Shown here one piece after another: positions 23,229 to 37,235 of a DNA stretch of 64,000 bases (position 1 is the first letter of the stretch; each line of letters opens with the position of its first letter). Under the pieces are notes generated by a model, which saw only the letters and a list, made by a program, of their open reading frames with translations, searched no databases and was not told where the DNA came from. The stretch is from Polytrichum commune (Eukaryota > Streptophyta > Polytrichopsida > Polytrichales > Polytrichaceae), in the NCBI GenBank assembly GCA_950295325.1, contig OX485806.1:55609169-55673168 (forward strand), written 5' to 3'. The translations under genes and the position numbers were made by a program.

Positions 23229-23490
23229 TATTGGATGTCAATAGGACTAGAGATGAGATTGCACAAGCATATAGACATACACAAAATCATATGAATAGTG
23301 TTTGGAATGAGATGGTTTCATGCTTTCATTGCTTTGCCTTTTATTGATTTTTTCTCTTTGGTTCATACAAACAATATGGGATAATTTTTATCCCTCTTTG
23401 GACTAGTGTTGTGGCATTGTTGTGATCTTATGGTTTTTTATGTTTTTTCGATTACGTTCCCATTGACTATGAGAAATCTAATATATTTTT
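23229..23490 (-). repeat. Copia LTR C2, 3' LTR of copia-2
   Basis: It matches C1 and C3 (TATTGGATGTCAATAGG terminus, AATATGGGATAA, CATTGACTATGAG). Its start near 23490 and the polypurine tract have diverged, so the right limit is approximate. Confidence 0.7.
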
Positions 23491-24640
23491 GGATTTTTAA
23501 GTTGTGATATTGTATATAGATACGTTTTGTACGAGGATGATGTGTGGGATTCTTTGCAAGTGCTATGCATCCGAATTGTGGTACATGACGGGTGTCGGTT
23601 TTTTTTGCATGTATCCACCAATTCTAATCCAAATCGCTTCTTTCTTGCAATGGCTAGGGGCCATGTACGCTGCCTTTGTTGTAAACATTGCAATGTTTCA
23701 TTGTTTCTTGCATTTCCACAAAATGATTCCATTGCCAGTAAAAAAAATGTGTTCCCCGTGGTGAACTGCCGGTCGTTTTTATCTCCCGCCCAATCCGCAC
23801 TGCAAAACCCTTTCAAGGCAATATCCTTGCCTCCAAAACATAATTTGAAATTCAAAGTGCCCTTCAAATACCTCATGATGTGTTTCACGGCCATCCAATA
23901 TGGTGGACCGTCCTTTGATATGAATTGGCCCACTGTACTCATTGTAATTGTAAGATTGGCCCTCGTACCCACCTTTGCATACATGAGAGATCTTATCCCA
24001 ATGTTGTATGGAATACTTTCCATTTTTTTACATTCTTCGTACGAAAGTTTTAACAATCTTAAATTTGCGTCGAATAGAGTTTCCACTGATTTACATTCTT
24101 CCATGTTGAAACACTTGAGGACCCCCTTGATGTAGTTCCTTTGGTTTATGGGGATGGTACACGGGGAGGTCACTCCATTGTCAAGTTGAAAACCACGTGC
24201 GAACAAAAAAAACCTACTTTTTCTAAGTTGCATCAACAAAATGGGTCAAACTTTTATTAAAAAAAAACTTATGAGTACATATACATGGTATCTATTACAT
24301 AGTAAAAATTGATAACCAAAATTGATCATTTTTCTTCTTCTAGAAAACATACCATTTCTAATTAGAATGACGCAGAATTGAACTAAAAAAATTAATAGAA
24401 AAAATGGAGATGATTAACATTTTCAAAAAAATATACAAAAAGATATCATCAATGGATATGTATATATAGAAAAAATATCATAATTTTTAAAATTATCTAT
24501 GGCATATAATATAGGGGTAGCAAACTTTGTTCGCACGTGGTTTTCAACTTGACAATGGAGTGACCTCCCCGTGGGATGGTACGAGCTTTTTTATTCCTCT
24601 CAAATTCCACTTTTAGGCAATAAAATAATTCTTGTATGAA
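23478..24640 (-). pseudogene. Copia-2 RT (C-terminal) and RNase H, split by a MITE
   Basis: The minus strand is open for 253 codons at 23478-24239: INQRNYIKGVLKCFNMEECK, then MYAKVGTRANLTITMSTVGQ, then AVKHIMRYLKGTLNFKLCFG and LKGFCSADWAGD, then RMHSTCKESHTSSSYKT. These are copia RT and RNase H blocks. The first residues of that frame come from the MITE (24161-24572). The copia sequence resumes at 24573-24640 and breaks at the A4 fragment. The RT core from AFLNG to about the YVDDL box is missing. RNase H has further shifts near 23600-23700. Confidence 0.88.
24161..24572. mobile_element. 412-bp MITE with perfect 47-bp terminal inverted repeats
   Basis: The left end ACGGGGAGGTCACTCC and right end GGAGTGACCTCCCCGT are perfect inverted repeats over 47 bp (24161-24207 and 24526-24572). 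GGGATGGTAC flanks both sides (24151-24160, 24573-24582), a 10-bp target duplication, which points to the Mutator group. If the TIR is read one base longer (CACGGGG), an 8-bp duplication fits hAT instead. The core is AT-rich and non-coding. The homologous copia at 55360-55385 shows the uninterrupted site. Confidence 0.93.
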
Positions 24641-25097
24641 GGCTGATGCTAACAAGCGAGCACTCCATCGTCATCTACGCGTCACGTAGATGCCGATGGA
24701 CTCAGGACTCATTTGCCCCATTCAGGCAAGTATTGAGGAATTTATGCCTGTTTGAACCTTGGCAATCCCAGGAATCACTCCCAGGCACTGCTGTACCAGG
24801 GCGCTGTCCCAGGACAGCGCCCCATTCAAATTGCCATAACTCTTAGCTTACACCTCCGATTGAGGTGATCTTGAGCATTCTAGAATCCCCACGCCATGAG
24901 CTACGCATAGCTCATGGCCTTAACCTTGTGCCTCCCAGTCTCTGTAGGTGGGAGGCGTTCCCAATGCCCGGGGCCCTCACCCACACTAGGATCACTTGGG
25001 CCCTCTCACCAACGGCGCCACAAGTCCCGGGTGTCGCTCCGGGGTCCCCCTTGTGCCCATGGTGTTTCGGGCACTCCTCATGGAGAGGTGCGCGGCA
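24640..25097 (-). repeat. LTR A4 (family A), 3' truncated fragment
   Basis: It is about 458 bp of the family A LTR, from the region of CATCTACGCGTCACGTAGATG to the LTR start, here GGTGCGCGGCA on the plus strand. It sits inside the copia-2 RT and coincides with loss of the RT core, so an insertion followed by deletion is likely. The palindrome has one change (TGTCCCAGGACAG). Confidence 0.85.
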
Positions 25098-25657
25098 TTA
25101 CTCTTATTTGGAAGATCTCCCAATCCATGGCCGATCACGTTGTGAGAATGCATCCAATGGTGATTAACTTGGCCATGGGGACAAAGGTTTCGTTAGAATC
25201 CACTATGGCCACTTCAAAGTATATTTTTGCTATTAAATTTGCCTTATGCCTAACAATTCCATCCAATGCATCCCTCTTGGTTTGGAACACCCATTTGTAC
25301 CATACACTCTAATGATCATTTAGAACGTTGGTCAGTTTTCACATATTGTTGGCAATGAACGAGTAAATTTTTTCTTGCATTATAGCCTTCCACTTGCTCA
25401 CATAGTTGGATCTCAACGCTTTGCACAAATTCAAATGATCATTCTAAAATGCCACATTGATCCATTCTTTGCGGTGTTGGCATAGAATATGTTTCTTCCA
25501 CCATTCTCTAGGCAGGTGCGGCTCCCTTGTAGGATATCTTCCATCTTTGCCAAATCTATTGATGCGGACATTATTCTCTTCTGGTCATTCATTTGTTTTT
25601 TTATTCGCAACCAAGTCATTTCTCACAACAACCACCAAGTGCACTCATGCCTTCATT
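25098..25657 (-). pseudogene. Copia-2 RT N-terminal region
   Basis: The minus strand gives KKQMNDQKRIMSASIDLAKM, then KWKAIMQEKIYSFIANN, then YKWVFQTKRDALDGIVRHKA, then DSNETFVPMAKLITIGCIL and SAMDWEIFQI. KWVF and the ETFxPxAK block are diagnostic of copia RT. Several stops break it. Its upstream neighbour, the integrase, lies at 34560-35598, beyond the DNA transposon, which inserted between them. Confidence 0.88.
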
Positions 25658-25688
25658 CCTTGCACTCGGGGGGGGGGGGGGGGGCACT

Positions 25689-26040
25689 GGCGAAAAACAT
25701 AGGAACTACGTTCGATAAAATATAGGGTCTTGTATAAAAATTTGGCGTAAAATTTGTAAAATTATTAGATGTTGTATAGGGTGCTTTGGGATTATGAAAC
25801 ATGATTATAAGTAATATAGCATTTGACAAAACATGATTAAATTACCTAAGTGGTACATATAAAATAGCATGGAGAAAAAACGATAGTTTCAAAAATTAAA
25901 TACTTTGCCACCAAAAAAACTCCAGAATGCTCGGCAATTAGCCGTTTCCTCTATAGAACTCCCTGGACTCTGCTCCCACCCTCGCCTCCGTCAACCCTAG
26001 TTCCTCTCTCGCCCCCGCCTCCGTCAAGCTTGGTGCAAGA
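25689..26040 (+). promoter_or_regulatory. 5' non-coding region of the transposase gene
   Basis: An AT-rich left half changes to C-rich sequence at 25920-26035, where CGCCTCCGTCAA occurs twice (about 25985 and 26011). That composition resembles a plant 5' UTR. A TATA-like CTCTATAGAA is near 25950. No transcription start can be fixed from sequence. Confidence 0.35.
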
Positions 26041-26119
26041 ATGGCACTCTGCTTCTCCGAGGCCCTGGAACAATCGGAGGATTCACAATCAAGCAATCAC
26101 CACCGGAAGCCTTGTCGCT
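26041..26119 (+). pseudogene. Transposase exon 1
   Basis: ATG at 26041 opens MALCFSEALEQSEDSQSSNH and ends CGCT before GTAAGT at 26120, a strong plant donor. The split codon T/GT is completed by exon 2 at 26555. Too short for most gene finders. I chose this ATG because it is the first one after the C-rich leader; it is not proven. Confidence 0.6.
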
Positions 26120-26554
26120 GTAAGTGCCTTTTATGACTTTCATTTAAGCATGTTCTGAAAATTTTGAGATTGTTCTCAACTGCTGCAATGTACAATTGAA
26201 ATGCTTCAATGTGTTCTACACGAAATCACTTGATATTCTTCCACCGCAAGTAACCAGTAATGAGGGATTTCAATTCACCTCTTATAAAGCCGAAGCTCTC
26301 TATTCCAAAGCTATCACCAGATTCAGCTTAGCCTTCGAAATCCTCAAACTCTTAGTCTTGTTCGCAATCTGATTTAGCTTTCCGCACACCGAATTGCAAA
26401 GCCTGCTGGATACATGAACAATCCGTACAGTAGTTTCAACTTGAAAGTGTTGCCGTTATCTTTCAAGTGTTGTCTGAAAATCAATACTAGCAAGGATAGG
26501 TATATGCTAAAGTAGCTGAGAGAAAATTGCTTGCAATTTTTGTTCCGAGTGCAG

Positions 26555-26701
26555 GTTTCGCTGCCGGGGTTGGATTCGACTGCTCCAGTTACTTCGCTTT
26601 CAGAGCTTTGGGGATCGAATTGGAATGTCGACATAGCCAGTTCATGTAGCAATTCATCCGGTGTTTTTCACATGGTCGTGGAAGCCTGGCCATCCCACAA
26701 G
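26555..26701 (+). pseudogene. Transposase exon 2
   Basis: It follows the acceptor GAGTGCAG and reads FAAGVGFDCSSYFAFRALGI, then ELECRHSQFM, TAG at 26647-26649, and QFIRCFSHGRGSLAIPQ. The donor is AAG/GTGTCT at 26701-26702. The frame agrees with exons 1 and 3. The single stop fits a CAG to TAG change. Confidence 0.65.
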
Positions 26702-28149
26702 GTGTCTTTTCTATCCTGAGACCAACAAGATAGCAAAGAGATCCTGTTAGAGCTCAAAATCCTCCTGCTCCTTCGATTTAGGGGGGAGGCTGGGCTTCTT
26801 GGCAGGTTTAGAATCTTTGCTTTTATAAAGATGTCCATCTTTCTCGAGTTTTCCAATGTGCTTTGCACCACTTGACTTCCGTTTCTATCCCAAGTTCTTA
26901 TCTGGTGCATCTTGTTGGTTCCTGCAAGTCCCAATAACAACAAGCCTAGGGTTAGTATGTGCAAGTGCAAAATTAGTTTCTCTACTTTCTATTTGCTTAT
27001 TGAAGTGTGTGATTCTTGCAATTCCAGTGCTCCAATGAAGTGTTTTGAACTCGTGCTCTCTCCTCTTCCTAAATATGCCTTTAAAATTATTGTGAAGGAA
27101 ATTGGTAATTTATCTATCTGGTGCATCTTGTTGGTTCCTGCAAGTCCCAATAACAACAAGCCTAGGGTTAGTATGTGCAAGTGCAAAATTAGTTTCTCTA
27201 CTTTCTATTTGCTTATTGAAGTGTGTGGTTCTTGCAATTCCAGTGCTCCAGTGAAGTGTTTTGAACTCATGCTCTCTCCTCTTCCTAAATATGCCTTTAA
27301 AATTATTGTGAAGGAAATTGGTAATTTATCTGATCAGCTTTAGCATCTACATTAATTAGTACTTGTGATATAACCCCATCATGAGCCTCAAAAACTCGTT
27401 GCAATTGGCCTGATTTGAGAGGCGCTTCATTTCTACATAATATAAGTTAGATTTTTCCACAAGCAAATCCTGTTTGCACCTTCTTTCTCCTTCATCTCAG
27501 GGGCTCGCTCAATCTTAGGTGATCCAGGTCAATATTTTTGCCTGTCCTTTTGAAAATACTCTCTTAAGTTAAGCGGGTAAAAGTCTGTTCTTGATCTTAA
27601 ATGGACACCTATATTTGAGCTATGTGGTTGGGTGTGAATTCTAGAACGGACACCATAAGGATATGGTTTTAAAAGAGATTGGCTACCTGCTCAAAATTTA
27701 TTAACCATTCTCGGTTCAACAGTGAACATTATTGGAGGGACCTATATGATCATTTATTGAGAAAGAGGTTTAGCAATTTGATAGTGAACAAGATATTCAT
27801 ATGAGCTGTGAAAATCATGAGACAAATGACTACGGCCTGAATTGGAGTTGCCAATCATGTTGTACTAATTGTGTGTTTCATATCCTACAGAAAGTGGGTG
27901 CAGAGCTCAAGGTGTCCATTTAGACCTGCTTGCTCTAAAACTTCTGAGCAAGAAAACTATGAACAACAAAGTAGTATGGAAAATTTCTCTCTGATCATGG
28001 AGATTGTTTCTGTATACGTTCACTCACTTCTTGTATCTATCAAATGCTCCAAACTGACCCATCACATACTAGCAGTTGCTGTTCCTTCTTAAAATTTTGT
28101 TCAAAACCTGGCTGTATTAATTGTTGAACCGGTTGTCTTTGTATTCCAG
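26702..28149 (+). other. Transposase intron 2
   Basis: A 1,448-bp intron from GTGTCT to TGTATTCCAG. It contains a recent 216-bp tandem duplication (26901-27332). Open frames in it, including one across both copies, show no known domain and are probably non-coding. Confidence 0.6.
26901..27332. repeat. 216-bp tandem duplication, nearly identical copies
   Basis: TCTGGTGCATCTTGTTGG begins each copy, at 26901 and 27117. I count three differences over 216 bp (for example GTGATTC against GTGGTTC). The length is a multiple of three, so an open frame (26912-27343) runs through both, but this lies in intron 2. Confidence 0.95.
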
Positions 28150-28332
28150 TTGACACGATTTGGGGTTCGACTTTCAAAACAATTGGCCATTAGCTTAGGC
28201 CACCCATTGATGGGATCATTGATCCTTCTTAATCCTATAGCGCCATCGAGCAAATTAGAGCAATCGAAAGGCCATACAGTTTCGGTGGAGTGCGTGTTGG
28301 TGCAGGGTTTGGCGCTAATCCTTACAATTCAG
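28150..28332 (+). pseudogene. Transposase exon 3
   Basis: After the acceptor TGTATTCCAG it reads DTIWGSTFKTIGH, a TAG (28191-28193), LRPPIDGIIDPS, a TAA (28230-28232), then SYSAIEQIRAIERPYSFGGV and RVGAGFGANPYNS, joining exon 4 in phase. Both stops fit CAG and CAA decay. The glycine-rich end flows directly into GLICQQRPKRSG of exon 4, which supports the splice model. Confidence 0.68.
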
Positions 28333-28511
28333 GTACGATTTCAACTCGTTTGTTTTTGTTCTATCTGCAAAATGTGAGTGCAATGCATTGGAATTTAGGG
28401 TTTGATCTTGGGGTTGGAGTTGCGGATCTAAGTTCGGGGTTGGGGTTTGAAATCTAGGGTTTAGGTTCAGGGTTTGAATTCTAAGGTCGGGCTTGGGGAT
28501 TTTGTTGTAGG
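28333..28511 (+). other. Transposase intron 3 with TTTAGGG-like words
   Basis: A 179-bp intron from GTACGA to TTGTTGTAG. It contains several GGGTTT/AGGGTTTG words, reminiscent of plant telomere repeats and of telo-box elements seen in 5' parts of plant genes. These are too short and irregular to be telomeric DNA. Confidence 0.55.
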
Positions 28512-29940
28512 GTTGATCTGCCAGCAACGTCCCAAGCGTAGTGGCACCATGAAGGTGCGGGTGAAGATATATTTTCTCAAGCAAGAAGGAGACCTTCCTA
28601 AGTTGTTGAGCCCCATTGACACTGAAAAGGATGCTTCGCTAGAGACTCTACGGGCAAGATTGGAGCAGCTCAACGTCTTCAAGCGGTTGGGGCCCTATCA
28701 GTTTTGGGATGCCGAGGAGGGCTGTAGGATTGACATCGACTTTGAAGCCTTGAATTCAATTCGAGATTGTGTTCACTTGATTCCAGCAGAGGACGATGAG
28801 GCTGGACGATGTTGTAAGCGTCCTCGGGTGGATGACGTTGTATTGGGTGGGGAATATGTTGGAACTACAGATGAAATACCAAACGCGCATGCAGAAGAAG
28901 CTGATCTTAAGAGCAGAGAACCTGTACAGACGGGTCCAGCCTCCTCTTCAGGAGTTGGTGCACTGGAGGAGCATTCAGTGACAGACAACCCTGCTATGAA
29001 GTCCACCCTTGTGCCCAATGACGTGCTACAGTGGTACATGAAGGCGGAGGAGAGACTTCGTAAAGATCTCAAGCAAGTTTCTATGGAGGATCACGACTGG
29101 TCGTTGCGTTCTTGGGACCAAGGCGGGGCTGGAGTTGTGAAGTTGTATTGTGGTGAGTGTCGAAGTCCGATTGGTGGAAGCACGGGCAAACATACTAAGA
29201 ATTCTGTCGCGAATTTGTTTTCTAATTTTTTAAAAAACCATCTAAATAGTGCTAGCCACATAAGGAACTACTGCCGGCAGAAAGGAGTGGAATTTTCCAA
29301 TCACCCCCTAGCTGGCAGCACAAGAGACAATCCCTTGATATTTACTACTGCTGACCACAAGAGGATGGTAGAAGAAGGCATCGGGATTATTGCAACTGTG
29401 AATAAATCTGTTGATCTAGACAAACCAACTTTCCAATTGGTTGGTGACCCTGATGACACTCTGATGAAGTCCTATTGATTTAAGGTGAGGTGTGTTATAT
29501 GCCCAAAGGAAGTATTTCAGTTGTGCCCACCCCAACGGAATTTGGAGGCAAATCTACTCAACCATGTCCATGGAGTGGTGCACGCTAAAACCTTGGAGGA
29601 TTTGAATGCCCAATTTGCAAAAGGGTCAGCTTTATCCACCGGGAAGAGGGGCAGGCCAAGTCGATCCTCGGCATCCAGTGGTGAGGCTAGCCATAAGGGG
29701 TTGCATTCATTCTTCCGACATGTCAAAGGTGAGTTACAATCTTATGATAGAGAATCCTTGTCTTTGCTGGCATGTTGGGGTATGAGAGGGCCTAATTGTG
29801 TTTATGCTGGGAAGTCGTATGGTATCAATGGATTGTTGTTTGATCCCCATCTAGGTAAATTGTGGTACCCTGAGCCTCACTTAGAAGCATTGTTGAATGT
29901 AGATGGTGATGTTGTCATTGTAAAAGGTGCTTTCCGGCAT

Positions 29941-30912
29941 TGTCGCGCACCTCTCCATGAGGAGTGCCCGAAACACCATGGGCACAAGGGGGACCCCGGA
30001 GTGACACCCGGGACTTGTGGCGCCGTTGGTGAGAGGGCCCAAGTGATCCTAGTGTGGATGAGGTCCCCGGGCGTTGGGAACGCCTCCCATCCACGAAGAC
30101 TAGGAGGCACAAGGGTAAGGCCATGAGCTATGCGTAGCTCATGGCGTGGTGATTCTAGAATGCTCAAGAACACCTCAATCCGAGGTGTGAGCTAGGAGTT
30201 ATGGCCATTTGAGTGGGGCGCTGTCCCGGGACAGCGCCCTGCTACAGCAGTGCCTGGGAGTGATTCCCGGGACTGCCAAGGTTCAAACAGGCATAACTTC
30301 CTCACCACTTGCCCGAATGGGGCAAGTGAGGAGTCCATCGGCATCTACGTGAAGCGTAGATGAAGATGGAGTGGTTGGTTGCTGGAATCAGACATCATAC
30401 AAGGAAGTTATGATGGTCTGAAGCTGCTGGGGGCTTCTAGGCCCAGCGGCTAAGGGAAAATGTCCACTTGGCCCCAACTCTTGGTAGAGAGACAAGAGGT
30501 TGGTTGACGGTGGGGTAGGGGCCCCGCGTAGAGTCCTAGAGGCTTATATGGGTGAGGTGGTGTGGCCTCACCCACCCGAGGCCGAACGGCAAGGCCTCCA
30601 TGGGCTTTGGCCTATTGTGAGGCCATAGTCGCCTAGTGTTCTTCGGGTTGTTGTAGTGTTGCTCCGGCAACGCGATGATCAACATAGGATTGGACTTCCA
30701 TGGATGGAAGTCCACATTGGGGAAATGGGTTACCGATTAAGGGGTGAGTCCCGAAAGCAAAGTAGGAGGGTTGGTTCCCTCCTATGAACTATTGGTCCGG
30801 GGTAAGAGGAGCTATCCATTAGCATGGCGGAATGCGAATGGTTAGCGCTCGTAACCTTTGCTAGAAACGAAAATTAGCAAGATTGTTAAGGGACCTAGCA
30901 AGGGTTGCGACA
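29941..30912 (+). repeat. Solo LTR A5 (family A) inside transposase exon 4
   Basis: A 972-bp LTR from TGTCGCGCACC to GGGTTGCGACA with a perfect GGCAT duplication (29936-29940, 30913-30917). Removing it and one GGCAT rejoins KGAFRH to RSCTRFSMSSEP in frame. It has intact palindromes at 30216-30239 (arm GGGCGCTGTCCC), 30120-30145 (arm GCCATGAGCTA), 30692-30713 (arm GGACTTCCAT) and near 30342-30362 (CATCTACG with CGTAGATG). Confidence 0.97.
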
Positions 30913-33824
30913 GGCATAGGTCATGTACAAGGTTTTCCATGTCAAGTGAACCGTTTCAGAACTTTACATGCTCGATGTGCTCTAGTATTGTCTTGGAAAT
31001 TGATTTCAGATTACGTGTTGTTCGTGAGGAATATGCGATTGATAAAAGAGGCCTTAGGAATACTGGTAGAGGTCGTAGGGCTGGGTACTTGTCAGTTTTT
31101 GAGTTGTGCTCCTACAGTCGGACATTGGCTAAAAAAACATAGACTTGAACATATGCGACATTGGTCTGCAAAGGTTAGAATTGCTCAATTGAAAATGAAA
31201 TGTCCTACGTTGAAAGAGTCTGCCAAGGGCGCATCTTATCAACATAACATTTACAAGTTCTGCCATGATATTATCAAAGCACATAGGACGGGGGCAATGG
31301 AAGGGAAACCGACGCTGTGGAATTATTTGCGTGATGTTGCTAGCAACCTGAACCATTCGAAACAAGGATTCAGATGGTCCACTAACTCTAAAGCATTTTC
31401 GCAAGCCATGAAAATGTATGGAGGTAGGCGCATGTGCGATTTGTTTGCATTGAATTATGCTGGTCCTAATTCCAATACTACCAAAAAAGAAAACCAGAAA
31501 GGCGTGCAATTTGTTCATGGGGAACATGTGGATATTTTTCGAAGTGTGGCCCAGATCTACAAAGACGCTTAGGCTGCTCATGGAATCGTTGGCCCTGTGC
31601 CAGTAATCATTGCAGAGGACGAATCGAAGGTGAAAGGCCGGATTGCATGGAATCATCGTTGGGACACTCTAACTAGATTCCGTGGCCCCAATGATAATCA
31701 TGTGTGTGTTTCTAATTATAAAGAAGTTGTGGGCTCAGGTGAGGAGGGGTATAATAAAATTGTGGATAGTTTTCGTACTAACCGTGTGGGAGCTTTTGCT
31801 AGGGTTGTAATGGTAAATCCCCTACACCAGAGTTTGCCTCGACTTGTATTGGTAGTCATGTGTACTTGTAATTGCTTTGATGCGCCGTGGGTGAGGCAAC
31901 AATGGCTAAGAATTGAGGACTTGTGGAATAAAGAGTGTAAAGACATTGTGGGACCCATTGTCGGGCATGCTAGCGACGGAGACAGTAGATGAAGGCAGCT
32001 GATGTTGTCCGATTACAAGTGCCAAGAAAAGACTCGATTGAGGGTCGACTGGGATGGTTGGTTGCTGACAGCCTCACTCAATGAACATGGCGATGCTAGC
32101 GGGCTTCACGATCAAGACTGGATACACAATGGAAAGAAGTTGATCAATCCTCTTGACTCGCCGGTGAAGACACTCCAGCTTGGAGAAGACGGCGCATTCC
32201 ACAGTCATCTTGGTATGATATACAACAAATATACCTTTGATGAACACGGCCTGAAATTGGAGGATGTTAAACGCAAGGACCGGCAGAACTGGGTGTCCGC
32301 GCAACGCGTGTGTCAAAGAAAATCCCAATAGTGCCTTGCAGCGATGAGGAACAGTCCTGAGGCGCACCGTGACTGCACTTTTGGCACAGAAATGTACTTG
32401 CAGATATGTGGTGACTATATCGACATATTTGCTTCACCCATTCTTGACGTGTGTAGTAGGATAGTGCTAGCCTCTAAGGTTTCTTTCTTTTTCAGGCTTT
32501 GGAAGTTGTGGTTTACTCACGGAAATCACGCGGTTGGAAACAACTCTGTGACATTTAAGCCTGCAGAGAGTTTTGTTAGCCAACAATGTTTCTTGGATGT
32601 CCAACTCTCTTGTCACTTTGTTGTTCTTCTGGTCAAGCACTTTCGGGATAAGTATCCACATCTCCCGGTCCCTTTTCATCTAACCGGGAGCGACAGTTGT
32701 GAGATTTTTTTTTCAAAAATTGGAGGTATGAACGGCATGGAGCGGTCTTATGACTTTCATGACCTAGTCAATACTGCTAACACCTTGAACCGCCTCTCAG
32801 GAGTTGAATACGGTGAAAATGGGCTTCAGTTCGGGAGAGTGTACAATAAGATTGAGAATATATGGTATGTCTTGCATCCGCTAGTCGAGGGGCAGACCCC
32901 CGCTAATCTCAGTGACTACTCATTGGTTGCTACAGATGATGACATCATTATAGCCTTGAAAGAAGGCTTCAAAAAAGCCCAGGTAATGCTACGAGTTTTG
33001 AATATGGCTCCATCTAACCAAGCATCGGTTCCCAAGAAACTATGGTTTGTCTCTCCTTAGAAGTTTGAAAAGCAGGATCCAAAACACCTGGCCTATCAAC
33101 CAGCAGCGACTCTAGAGTCGGGGCTAGATGGAGATGCGGAATGCGAGCGTGCAAGACTACAAGCCCTCCCCGAAGTTGGACTTGAATCAGGGAGTATTCC
33201 TAACCCTAACGATCTACTTGAGGATGATATTTTTGATGATGGTGTAGTGTGCTTGCCCGTATTAGAGGAGGAAACACGGGATGTGTTTATTGAGCTTTTA
33301 AGTGATCATGAAGTATAAATTTAGATGATTACCTTGCTGCTGCGTCATCCACTACATCCATGTTGTTTGGTTTGGGGTCTGACGTTGGTGTTTACTTCAA
33401 AGATTCTAGGGGATCTGGAACTTAATCAACCATGATGGCAGCAAAAAAAAGGACGAGGGGTAGACCCACTGCCGTCAATCGTGGAGTAGATAATGGCATG
33501 TTCTATATATGAAGGGTTCAAAAGATAAGGGTGAAGGTTGGTACTAAGTGGGGCAATTGTTGGCAACCCATTGACTTGATGAAACGTGCAGTCCAGAACG
33601 GAAATAGAGAAACGCTCTTCCCAACTGCTATGGCTTACCTCCATTGGTTCAAAAAACAGCCGGGTCTCAACAAATATAAGTATGTTGAGAGTGACTGTGT
33701 GTGGGTTGATGTGGATGCTATTATCTCAACTGTGTATCTAGAGTATGAATCAACTAGCAAAATCTACACCTTAGATGAGGTAGATGCAAACTCATTGAGT
33801 GAGTTCATTTCAAATAAAAAATAA

Positions 33825-34530
33825 AACCTGCTAGATTTGTACTATCTCACACATGTGGAGATATAATTTGGAAAAGGGCTGAATGATCATTAGTATACCT
33901 TGAAATCTGCAGTAGTCATTTCAGTTCGAGTACCCTCATATCTCCCACATGTGTAAATGGTAGCTTAGCTAGTTTAGGTGGATTTTGCTTGCATGGCGTG
34001 GGATTTTCCTCCAATGTGTAGGATTGGAAGATCAAGGCATCAATTGTAAACCTTGTAAATGTGACTTTGAGACACATGTGGCCGGCTTGTTCCCTAAGAC
34101 CTCAAGGTTTCTAACTGTGTTATCCAACACAACTTTTATTCGTTGGCTCGTGTTGCTTAATGACATGTAATTGCAATATTTTGTTGTTATTGTTTGGTGT
34201 TTTGCTTTGCCCGGACTTCAGTGTGACCCTAAATCCTAAACCCTAGTAAATGTTTGTTTCTCTTACTCTGTACACGTGCTTCTAACGAGAATTCTACTGT
34301 GTCATACACTTTAAGGAATAGGGGCAATCAGGGGAAAAAAATTACATATAAGTAATATAGGGTACCATAAAATCAACCATCCAAGAATTTATAATTACCA
34401 ATAGGGTGCAAATAATCACAACAATTTACCATTATTTCAAAAATTAGCATCCCTTATAATCCTTTCTCATAGGTAAATAACCCCCATTTTAATAGGTCAT
34501 TATCGCAGGTGTATGCAAAATATACAAGGG
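33825..34530 (+). other. 3' non-coding region of the DNA transposon
   Basis: It has an inverted repeat of CACACATGTGGAGATAT (near 33850) and ATATCTCCCACATGTGT (near 33938), which could form a stem close to the transcript end. The rest is AT-rich with no motif. The terminal repeat follows. Confidence 0.5.
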
Positions 34531-34559
34531 AGTGCCCCCCCGAGTCCTTGCACTCATGT

Positions 34560-35598: not shown

Positions 35599-36650
35599 TA
35601 TGAGCCCAAAATGGTTGCTTATATTTGTTTTATGCTTAGGATCTACTTAGAATTGCATTTGGAGTGTTATTGAAACAATTAAAAGTATAAAAAGAGTGAG
35701 GCTTGGTGTGGATTTATGTTTAGGCCTTAAGCCTATTTGTGTGGTTAATTAAAAGCTTAGCGACATTAGGGAGTGTTTTGGTTGAGTGAGTAATGTTTGA
35801 GGAAGCAAGGGGAAGGGCCTTTGATTTAAATGTTTGAATTAGAACATGCTCTTGTTGGTTTAGGGGGTGAGGTTTTAGTGAATAGGATAAGGTCCTACTA
35901 AGTAGGAAAATGTTAAGGGGGTTGTGGTTGAGGGATGCCCTCTCTCATTCCTTCCTCCTCTCTCATTTTCTCTTTCTCTTTCTCTTGTGGTTGTGTGTGG
36001 GTGTGTGTGTGTGTGTTGTGTAGTGTGGTAGAGAATATAGTTGATTAGAGGGAGCTTAGAAAATTAGCTGATTAGAGGGTAGCTGCGACAACAACTTACT
36101 AAGGGTAACTGAGACAGTAGCTATACTAAGGGTGTTGCGACAATAGCTGGGACGAAGGCCGAGCTGCGACAGCAACTTACTAAGGTTAACTGAGACAGCA
36201 GCTTACTAAGGGTACTGAGACAACAACTATACTAAGGGTGTTGCGACAATAGCTGGGACGAAGGCCGAGCTGCGACAGCAGCTCTACTAAGGGTAACTGA
36301 GGCAGCAACTATACTAGGGAGCAGCTGGACTAAGGGGCAGTTAGAATGAGGGGTTAGTTAGATCTGGTACCCTAAGTTAAGATGGATGGGTTAACTAGGT
36401 AGTTAGCTATCCGTGTAATCGGGGGTGCAATTGTGTGGGGAGTTGATAAAGGGTGTGAAGATAGTACTAATAGAGAAAAGCGTTTATCAACGCTTGTACT
36501 CATAATATGGAATAAATTGGTGTGACCCAATGTATGTGTGATGTCATGGGGATGAATGACGGAGGAAGGGTAAACTAGGATGAATATGAATGTGATCACC
36601 ATACCCTCACCCGGACTAGGACGCTTAAGGGTGGGCGGTTTGGCCTCACA
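35599..36650 (+). repeat. Solo LTR B3 (family B)
   Basis: A 1,052-bp LTR from TATGAGCCCAAAATGG (first G of TGTG changed) to TTTGGCCTCACA. The flanks GATGG (35594-35598) and AATGG (36651-36655) match at four of five bases. It carries the family pyrimidine tract (35940-35990), a GT run (about 35998-36017) and its own minisatellite. Confidence 0.9.
36070..36335. repeat. Minisatellite in B3
   Basis: Units near 27-30 bp combine ACTAAGGGTAACTGAGACAG, CAGCTT and GTTGCGACAATAGCTGGGAC. About eight to nine units are present. It differs from the B1 and B2 arrays and lies at the matching LTR position. Confidence 0.8.
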
Positions 36651-36655
36651 AATGG

Positions 36656-37235
36656 ATCCCATTTGAATGGCTTCAACAACATTATCATCATGCAAATGCA
36701 CATTGTGTGGAGCAATTACCTCATAACTGTCGAATGCGGTCTTATGTAAAGTCATGTTTTTTTTAGCTCCCAAATTCATGATCCACTTACACATACTCTT
36801 GGAATGTGTCCCATTAGGCATTAGAAATACGTAGCCATTATTGTCTTGTACACTCTTCACTTATTTGCATCATTTGTTCTTTATTTTGTACTAAAAATGT
36901 GCATTGTAGTCTTGTATGCCACAATAGAAGCATAACCTTGCACATTGGTACGGAAATGAGTTGTCTCTTTTGTTTTGTTGTACTTTCATGAAGGCATCCT
37001 CACCTCTGGGTTTTTCTCATGCATCAAACGCATCGTGACATAGTCCATGGTAAGTTCTTTCATTGGAATCATCTTCAAGGCAATGATCAAGTATTTGTAC
37101 ATCACCGACAAACTTTTGAACAAGGCAATGAAGATGTTTTTGTCTGTCACAAATACTTCCAGACAAGGAAAGTGATGCACAAACATTTGATTTTGTTGAC
37201 ATGGTCTAACAAGTTGTTGCCTTTTTGCACCCTGC
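36656..37235 (-). pseudogene. Copia-2 Gag C-terminus and protease
   Basis: The minus strand reads NLLDHVNKIKCLCIT, then CLEVFVTDKNIFIALFKSL, then ALKMIPMKELTMDYVTMRLM (the UBN2 Gag block), then a zinc-knuckle trace CFYCGIQDYNAHF, then SVQDNNGYVFLMPNGTHSKS and MCKWIMNLGAKKNMTLHKTA, where the protease D-S-G-A motif has become NLGA. It ends HDDNVVEAIQMGS at LTR B3. The rest of Gag lies beyond 39560. Confidence 0.88.

Follow-up and report, generated by a model that had tools for sequence, protein, structure and literature searches.

A decayed cut-and-paste transposon of Polytrichum commune and its land-plant family, a probable divergent relative of the P superfamily

The DNA analysed here (hereafter the window) is a stretch of 64,000 nucleotides from Polytrichum commune (NCBI GenBank assembly GCA_950295325.1, contig OX485806.1, positions 55,609,169 to 55,673,168 of the forward strand), in which positions 25665-34544 constitute one copy of a DNA transposon lying between two identical 8-bp stretches. 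The copy is in all likelihood the decayed form of an autonomous cut-and-paste transposon, belonging to a large family represented in liverworts, a fern and P. commune that is related, though divergently, to the P transposons. Terminal inverted repeats (TIRs), target duplications of a fixed length, a transposase open reading frame (ORF) and non-autonomous derivatives, by which cut-and-paste TIR transposons are recognised, were all found. The main parts of the window copy are as follows.

25665-34544, plus strand: whole transposon copy, 8,880 bp
25657-25664, strand not applicable: left target site duplication TCCTTGCA, 8 bp, the same as 34545-34552
34545-34552, strand not applicable: right target site duplication TCCTTGCA, 8 bp, an exact match to the left one
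25665-25688, plus strand: left TIR, CTCGGG(n)CACT, with a similar tip motif in other copies
34531-34544, minus strand: right TIR, the inverse of the left tip
28549-33824, plus strand: broken transposase gene, a single ORF in intact relatives, here with stops, a nested insert, frame changes and a lost stretch
29941-30912, plus strand: nested insertion resembling a solo long terminal repeat (LTR), 972 bp, TG...CA, with a 5-bp duplication GGCAT; foreign to the transposon

Both ends were available for 12 insertions (eight of autonomous size and four miniature). The 8-bp target duplications are exact in 11 of them and agree at seven of eight positions in the other (L047), and the duplications of different insertions are made up of unrelated sequences. 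The tips open with CTCGGG, CCCGGG, CACGGG or, in L045, CTTGGG, followed by a run of G and usually by CACT or CAGT. Of 22 ends, 16 have a subterminal core, TG[AC]GA[AT][AC]A, at a distance of 38-43 bases from the tip; it does not occur in the left ends of the window copy, L032 and L034 or in the ends of L009, L014 and L026. This core is a candidate binding site for the transposase, and is to be taken as a lead and not as a test because the pattern was picked after the data had been viewed and the copies are related. The terminal pattern TTGTATAGGGT gave 24 matches against a mean of 21.8 expected and is no commoner than chance.

The best match of the broken gene is a database protein of 1,479 residues (P0001), aligned over positions 28555-33821 in four pieces with 65-76% identity (E-values from 0 to 1.8e-28). 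The first-pass annotation of this region had recognised protein-like text, and the homology to intact proteins, which is far past chance, bears this out. It had further joined that text, by means of splice sites, into four exons and a single frame of about 1,580 codons starting at 26041, and in these respects the model has to be replaced by that of a broken single-exon gene. The transposon as a whole is also larger than the 26041-33824 marked at first. The gene lies in separate pieces not on account of introns but because of seven in-frame stops across the four aligned pieces, a frame change near 31128-31132, the loss at 33315-33318 of the counterpart of P0001 residues 1260-1311 together with a further frame change, and the nested insert, of which stretches 96% and 94% identical are present in L023 and L035, respectively. 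Similarity begins at 28555 when P0001 is compared by tblastn and at 28672 when 33 loci of the same genome are compared by blastn; the 2.9-kb leader that includes 26041 has no similarity to P0001 or to those 33 loci. Nothing useful came from scanning the pieces in the window against Pfam and PHROGs.

The P. commune genome (assembly size 408 Mb, in seven large contigs) was searched with P0001, and at least 36 matches, obtained from the 32 scored out of 1,979 candidates, were found on all seven large contigs. Thirty loci were built from this search, the window copy being one of them (L028). The whole gene is a single ATG-to-stop ORF of 1,490-1,509 codons in eight of the 30 loci (L011, L012, L013, L015, L016, L018, L021 and L022). 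The subfamilies differ at 26-52% of residues with non-synonymous divergence (dN) of 0.19-0.55, while synonymous divergence (dS) between them was not computable and is taken as saturated; finite dN/dS values belong to near-identical copies only and have very few changes behind them. These dN values in combination with saturated dS indicate that the protein sequence has been held while the silent sites were randomised. Three loci, L012, L013 and L018, are 99.5-99.9% identical across 6.75 kb and have different flanks and target duplications, which indicates recent movement. L022 is nearly identical to the database protein P0006 in the tree described below, so that the database includes proteins from the same species or a close relative.

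A 300-bp query from the end of L012 gave 40 scored matches out of 334 candidates, nine of them spanning the query almost end to end and the other 31 confined to its first ~167 bases. Four of the latter were examined and found to be 337-341 bp long, composed of ~170 bp from each end of an L012-type element; their ends match those of the elements of autonomous size, and their target duplications are likewise of 8 bp. These ~340-bp copies are internally deleted derivatives of an L012-type element and, since the ends and the duplication length are shared, were probably moved by the enzyme of the family.

Some further observations concern the leader of the window copy and its surroundings. The 5' leader carries a tandem 216-bp duplication, 99% identical, at 26899-27330. 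The part of the nested LTR-like sequence at 29941-30422 has a partial second copy on the opposite strand at 24612-25097, just outside the transposon (390 nucleotides at 93% and 92 nucleotides at 79% identity). Copia-like protein pieces flank the transposon on the minus strand at 23478-24245 and 36372-36860, the latter with Pol_BBD over the cut-off and the former Copia-like by eye only. The target into which the window transposon inserted may have been a Copia element.

The features of the encoded protein, as they can be located in the window copy, are listed below.

29149-29259, plus strand: first BED-like C-x2-C...H-x5-H finger, by eye, no Pfam match
29491-29583, plus strand: second CxxC...HxnH finger-like stretch, by eye, no Pfam match
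29641-29667, plus strand: AT-hook-like GKRGRP
30921-30980, plus strand: third finger-like stretch, C...CxxC; the FRH part of the motif precedes the nested insertion
31303-31488, plus strand: helix-turn-helix (HTH) region, aligned to PF12017 (P-element HTH) of distant members
31612-31626, plus strand: first catalytic Asp motif, AEDES (AEDET in relatives)
31969-31989, plus strand: second catalytic Asp motif, ASDGDSR, with a TGA stop next to it at 31990-31992
32110-32142, plus strand: DxxH motif, DQDWIHNGKKL, which opens an insertion of ~195 residues
32683-32712, plus strand: catalytic Glu motif, TGSDSCEIFF
33447-33821, plus strand: C-terminal domain and a second AT-hook-like motif, shifted to another frame in the window copy

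The proposal made on first pass, of a transposase with motifs in the order D-D-DxxH-E, related to P or hAT enzymes and unfamiliar in its N-terminal part, is sustained, and its gene is now placed in a TIR element with 8-bp duplications. AEDES, DQDWIHNGKKL and TGSDSCEIFF stand where they had been read, whereas ASDGDSRRR is obtained only by reading through the TGA stop inside it. Motif spacing was checked in 19 proteins with a strict pattern for the first Asp, a looser one having given chance matches in L015 and L016. The distances from first to second Asp, from second Asp to DxxH and from second Asp to Glu are 119/47/242 in 17 of the 19 and 119/52/247 in P0022 from Calypogeia; L018 fails the pattern through a substitution two residues ahead of CE, the Glu being kept. 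The region of the plant proteins that precedes the core carries CxxC...H...H, AT-hook-like RGRP and C...CxxC stretches that were identified by eye and are not recognised by Pfam; C...CxxC stretches akin to the third finger-like one are also present in the distant members considered below.

Database searches extended the family to other land plants. The first returned 28 relatives, including the fern Adiantum nelumboides and the liverwort Calypogeia fissa (two of the 28 are organism-labelled), and the second 90 relatives, including Riccia sorocarpa (nine) and Calypogeia (one). A midpoint-rooted tree of 48 proteins was inferred with support from the Shimodaira-Hasegawa-like approximate likelihood ratio test (SH-aLRT). 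The land-plant group comprises 18 of its rows (six plant-labelled, six from P. commune and six other) on a branch with support of 99 and adjoins 12 further rows (support 91), with insect-type and PHD-type groups on the opposite side. Two observations on individual members may be recorded here. The predicted protein P0027 of Adiantum nelumboides joins a family member to a Copia Pol_BBD, which reflects either one element nested in another or a gene model that fuses two. The group P0056-P0061 represents clusters of up to 223 sequences (P0059), with a relative of ~1,070 residues and a conserved C-terminal tail.

The comparison was made with P by way of Pfam models and published residues, and with Novosib and Dada by description. 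A Pfam scan of 41 members at E<=10 matched 33 families, 25 of which were listed. Among the families listed, TNP-like_RNaseH_N (PF21787) was matched by the most members, four of the 41 (best E 0.044); four families were matched by two members each, namely Fam20C (0.0033), Tnp_P_element (0.061), Rep_fac-A_C and DNA_pol_phi, and TNP-like_GBD (PF21788) by one (E 0.13). The best match to PF21787 (P0093) has 14.5 bits against a cut-off of 24.6, and that to PF21788 (P0022) 13.1 against 24.8. On their own these matches are weak, but the P-type ones coincide with the corresponding parts of the protein. The RNase H match of P0093 (residues 206-277) ends just past SDGD (267-270), and the insertion-domain match of P0022 (898-999) begins directly after DxxH (894-897). 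A whole-genome search with PF21787 at E<=1 gave no match and is uninformative, the controls also being without a match.

As the plant members scanned have no P domain over the cut-off and two distant members do have one, the link to P runs by way of intermediates. A search for distant members, in which a profile of eight was used and the 7,998 candidates with the most shared words were scored, found 237 proteins at E<=1. The 120 listed include PHD-bearing proteins and insect ones, the latter from Bradysia, Neodiprion, Venturia canescens, Frankliniella and Coccinella. PF12017 exceeds its cut-off of 23 bits in P0178 (27.3) and P0143 (24.1) and was found at E<=1 in eight of the 13 members of the PHD-type group. 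The HTH region of the plant side, too weak alone in the Pfam scan, aligns to PF12017 of the distant members. Within the insect-type alignment of 17 members, the RNase H model was matched by three and the insertion-domain model by one, weakly in both cases (best E 0.035 and 0.03). A profile of 28 plant members matched the insect-type group with a probability of 100 (E 2.8e-51) and the PHD-type group likewise with 100 (E 1.3e-41), the four motifs being aligned in each, while control profiles (reversed, column-shuffled and hAT fragments) did not exceed a probability of 0.3. Our best reading of these sequence comparisons sets the plant family at some distance from the P superfamily but in kinship with it through intermediates, rather than among its demonstrated members. 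At E<=1, the PHD-type group (P0143, P0178) has, in addition to the P-type HTH, a PHD finger in seven of 13 members and a Ulp1/SUMO-protease-like stretch in six of 13. One protein of the insect-type group, P0181, is labelled 'Maturase K [Frankliniella fusca]' in the public source and looks misannotated.

Several observations weigh against this reading. No plant-side protein scanned reaches the Pfam cut-off for a transposase or P domain, and the unrelated Fam20C (two members) and Astro_capsid_p (0.0045, one member) have better best E-values than the P-type families. P0138 has a precomputed PF12017 match and yet none at E<=1 on scanning, no THAP domain appeared among the families listed in the Pfam scans, and the hAT control was weak, consisting only of fragments of 104-182 residues. 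No transposase turned up among PDB sequences, whether these were searched with a piece from the window, with the plant or group profiles or with two distant members; in one PDB profile search, the best 60 of 182 matches were PHD-finger proteins and SUMO proteases. The window copy itself cannot give rise to a working protein. The TIRs of P elements differ from the CTCGGG, CCCGGG and CACGGG ends. The first two Asp are 119 residues apart in the plant family against 73 in Drosophila P, where the catalytic residues D230, D303, D339 and E531 correspond to a spacing of 73/36/228 (PMC8230255).

Four other explanations were weighed against kinship with P. Placement of the plant family within the hAT superfamily, as one of its lineages, is very improbable: the 8-bp duplications, the BED-like fingers and the C/DxxH signature would fit hAT also, but no hAT dimerisation or RNase H model was found in the 41 members (25 of 33 families listed), the 13 PHD-type members or the 17 insect-type members. 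P-type models recur instead, although the same genome has many matches to the hAT dimer domain over the cut-off (150 scored). P is favoured over hAT because its models recur weakly in the family and pass the cut-off in two distant members, with no hAT model present. Membership in Novosib or another named superfamily is unlikely, though Novosib elements share the 8-bp duplications and have algal hosts. Novosib is listed among the DDD/E superfamilies (PMC9587614), and low counts are tabulated for it in three angiosperm genomes (PMC8729191). Dada, for which a DDE core with the C/DxxH motif is likewise described (PMC9587614), can hardly be entertained, being contradicted by the anatomy: its elements lack TIRs, insert into small RNA genes and leave duplications of 6-7 bp (PMC3706591), whereas those of the plant family end in TIRs and are flanked by 8-bp duplications that have no sequence in common, with no RNA-gene target seen among the insertions. 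The splice sites reported at first could be those of a host gene or a domesticated transposase with introns; the chance of this is made negligible by the spread of matches over every one of the seven large contigs, by the TIRs with duplications and by the intact single-ORF relatives.

It is possible, and put forward tentatively, that the land-plant family and the linked insect and PHD-type groups form a separate superfamily, sister of P, distributed among land plants, insects and further hosts, without a Pfam model, with a C-terminal domain of its own (KST...LSxDRL), with conserved subterminal sites in P. commune, and in land plants since before the split between liverworts and ferns.

The enzyme would be a DDE transposase in which an RNase H-type core, as suggested by the motifs, is split by an insertion of ~195 residues at DxxH, as in the P element. 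The fingers, AT-hooks and P-type HTH, mostly ahead of the core, may bind the TIRs and the subterminal site ~40 bases from the tips. The enzyme would then cut the element out and insert it elsewhere by joining its ends to the target at positions separated by 8 bp, a chemistry to which the observed duplications point. GTP, the cofactor of P transposases, may be used here too. The ~340-bp internally deleted copies, with their shared ends and duplications, are likely to have been moved in trans.

The land-plant TIR superfamilies named in the available part of a 2022 review are Tc1-Mariner, hAT, Sola, MuDR, PIF-Harbinger and CACTA, P not being listed there (PMC9033089). A search of literature on P-type and new-superfamily transposons in bryophytes and land plants found no title or abstract on the plant family among those listed, most subscription journals and Repbase lying beyond its coverage; our best reading is that this is a divergent P-related clade undescribed in the literature searched. 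If true, a P-related family that appears recently active, has both full-length ORFs and matching miniatures and counts liverworts and a fern among the hosts of its relatives would mean that P-type transposition occurs in more kinds of host than now listed. It would offer a natural system for learning whether the insertion domain, the use of GTP and the subterminal binding sites of the P machinery are ancestral, and models built from it could put an end to the annotation of such genes as 'hypothetical proteins'.

P transposase is ~750 residues long, and the plant protein, with 1,490-1,509 codons in intact copies, is much longer. Compared with P and THAP9, it has an extra finger-like N-terminal region and a C-terminal domain, and its TIR sequence is another one. 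The plant gene is a single ORF, whereas that of the P element has four ORFs (PMC7776569), and the THAP domain is animal-only according to the same source. Both systems share 8-bp duplications, a D-D-E triad, an HTH (putative in the plant proteins) ahead of the core and internally deleted non-autonomous copies (PMC7776569, PMC8230255). In both, an insertion starts at DxxH, with ~190 residues in Drosophila P (residues 339-528; PMC8230255) and ~195 in the plant family, and the spacing from the second Asp to DxxH and Glu in the plant proteins, 47/242, resembles the 36/228 of Drosophila P.

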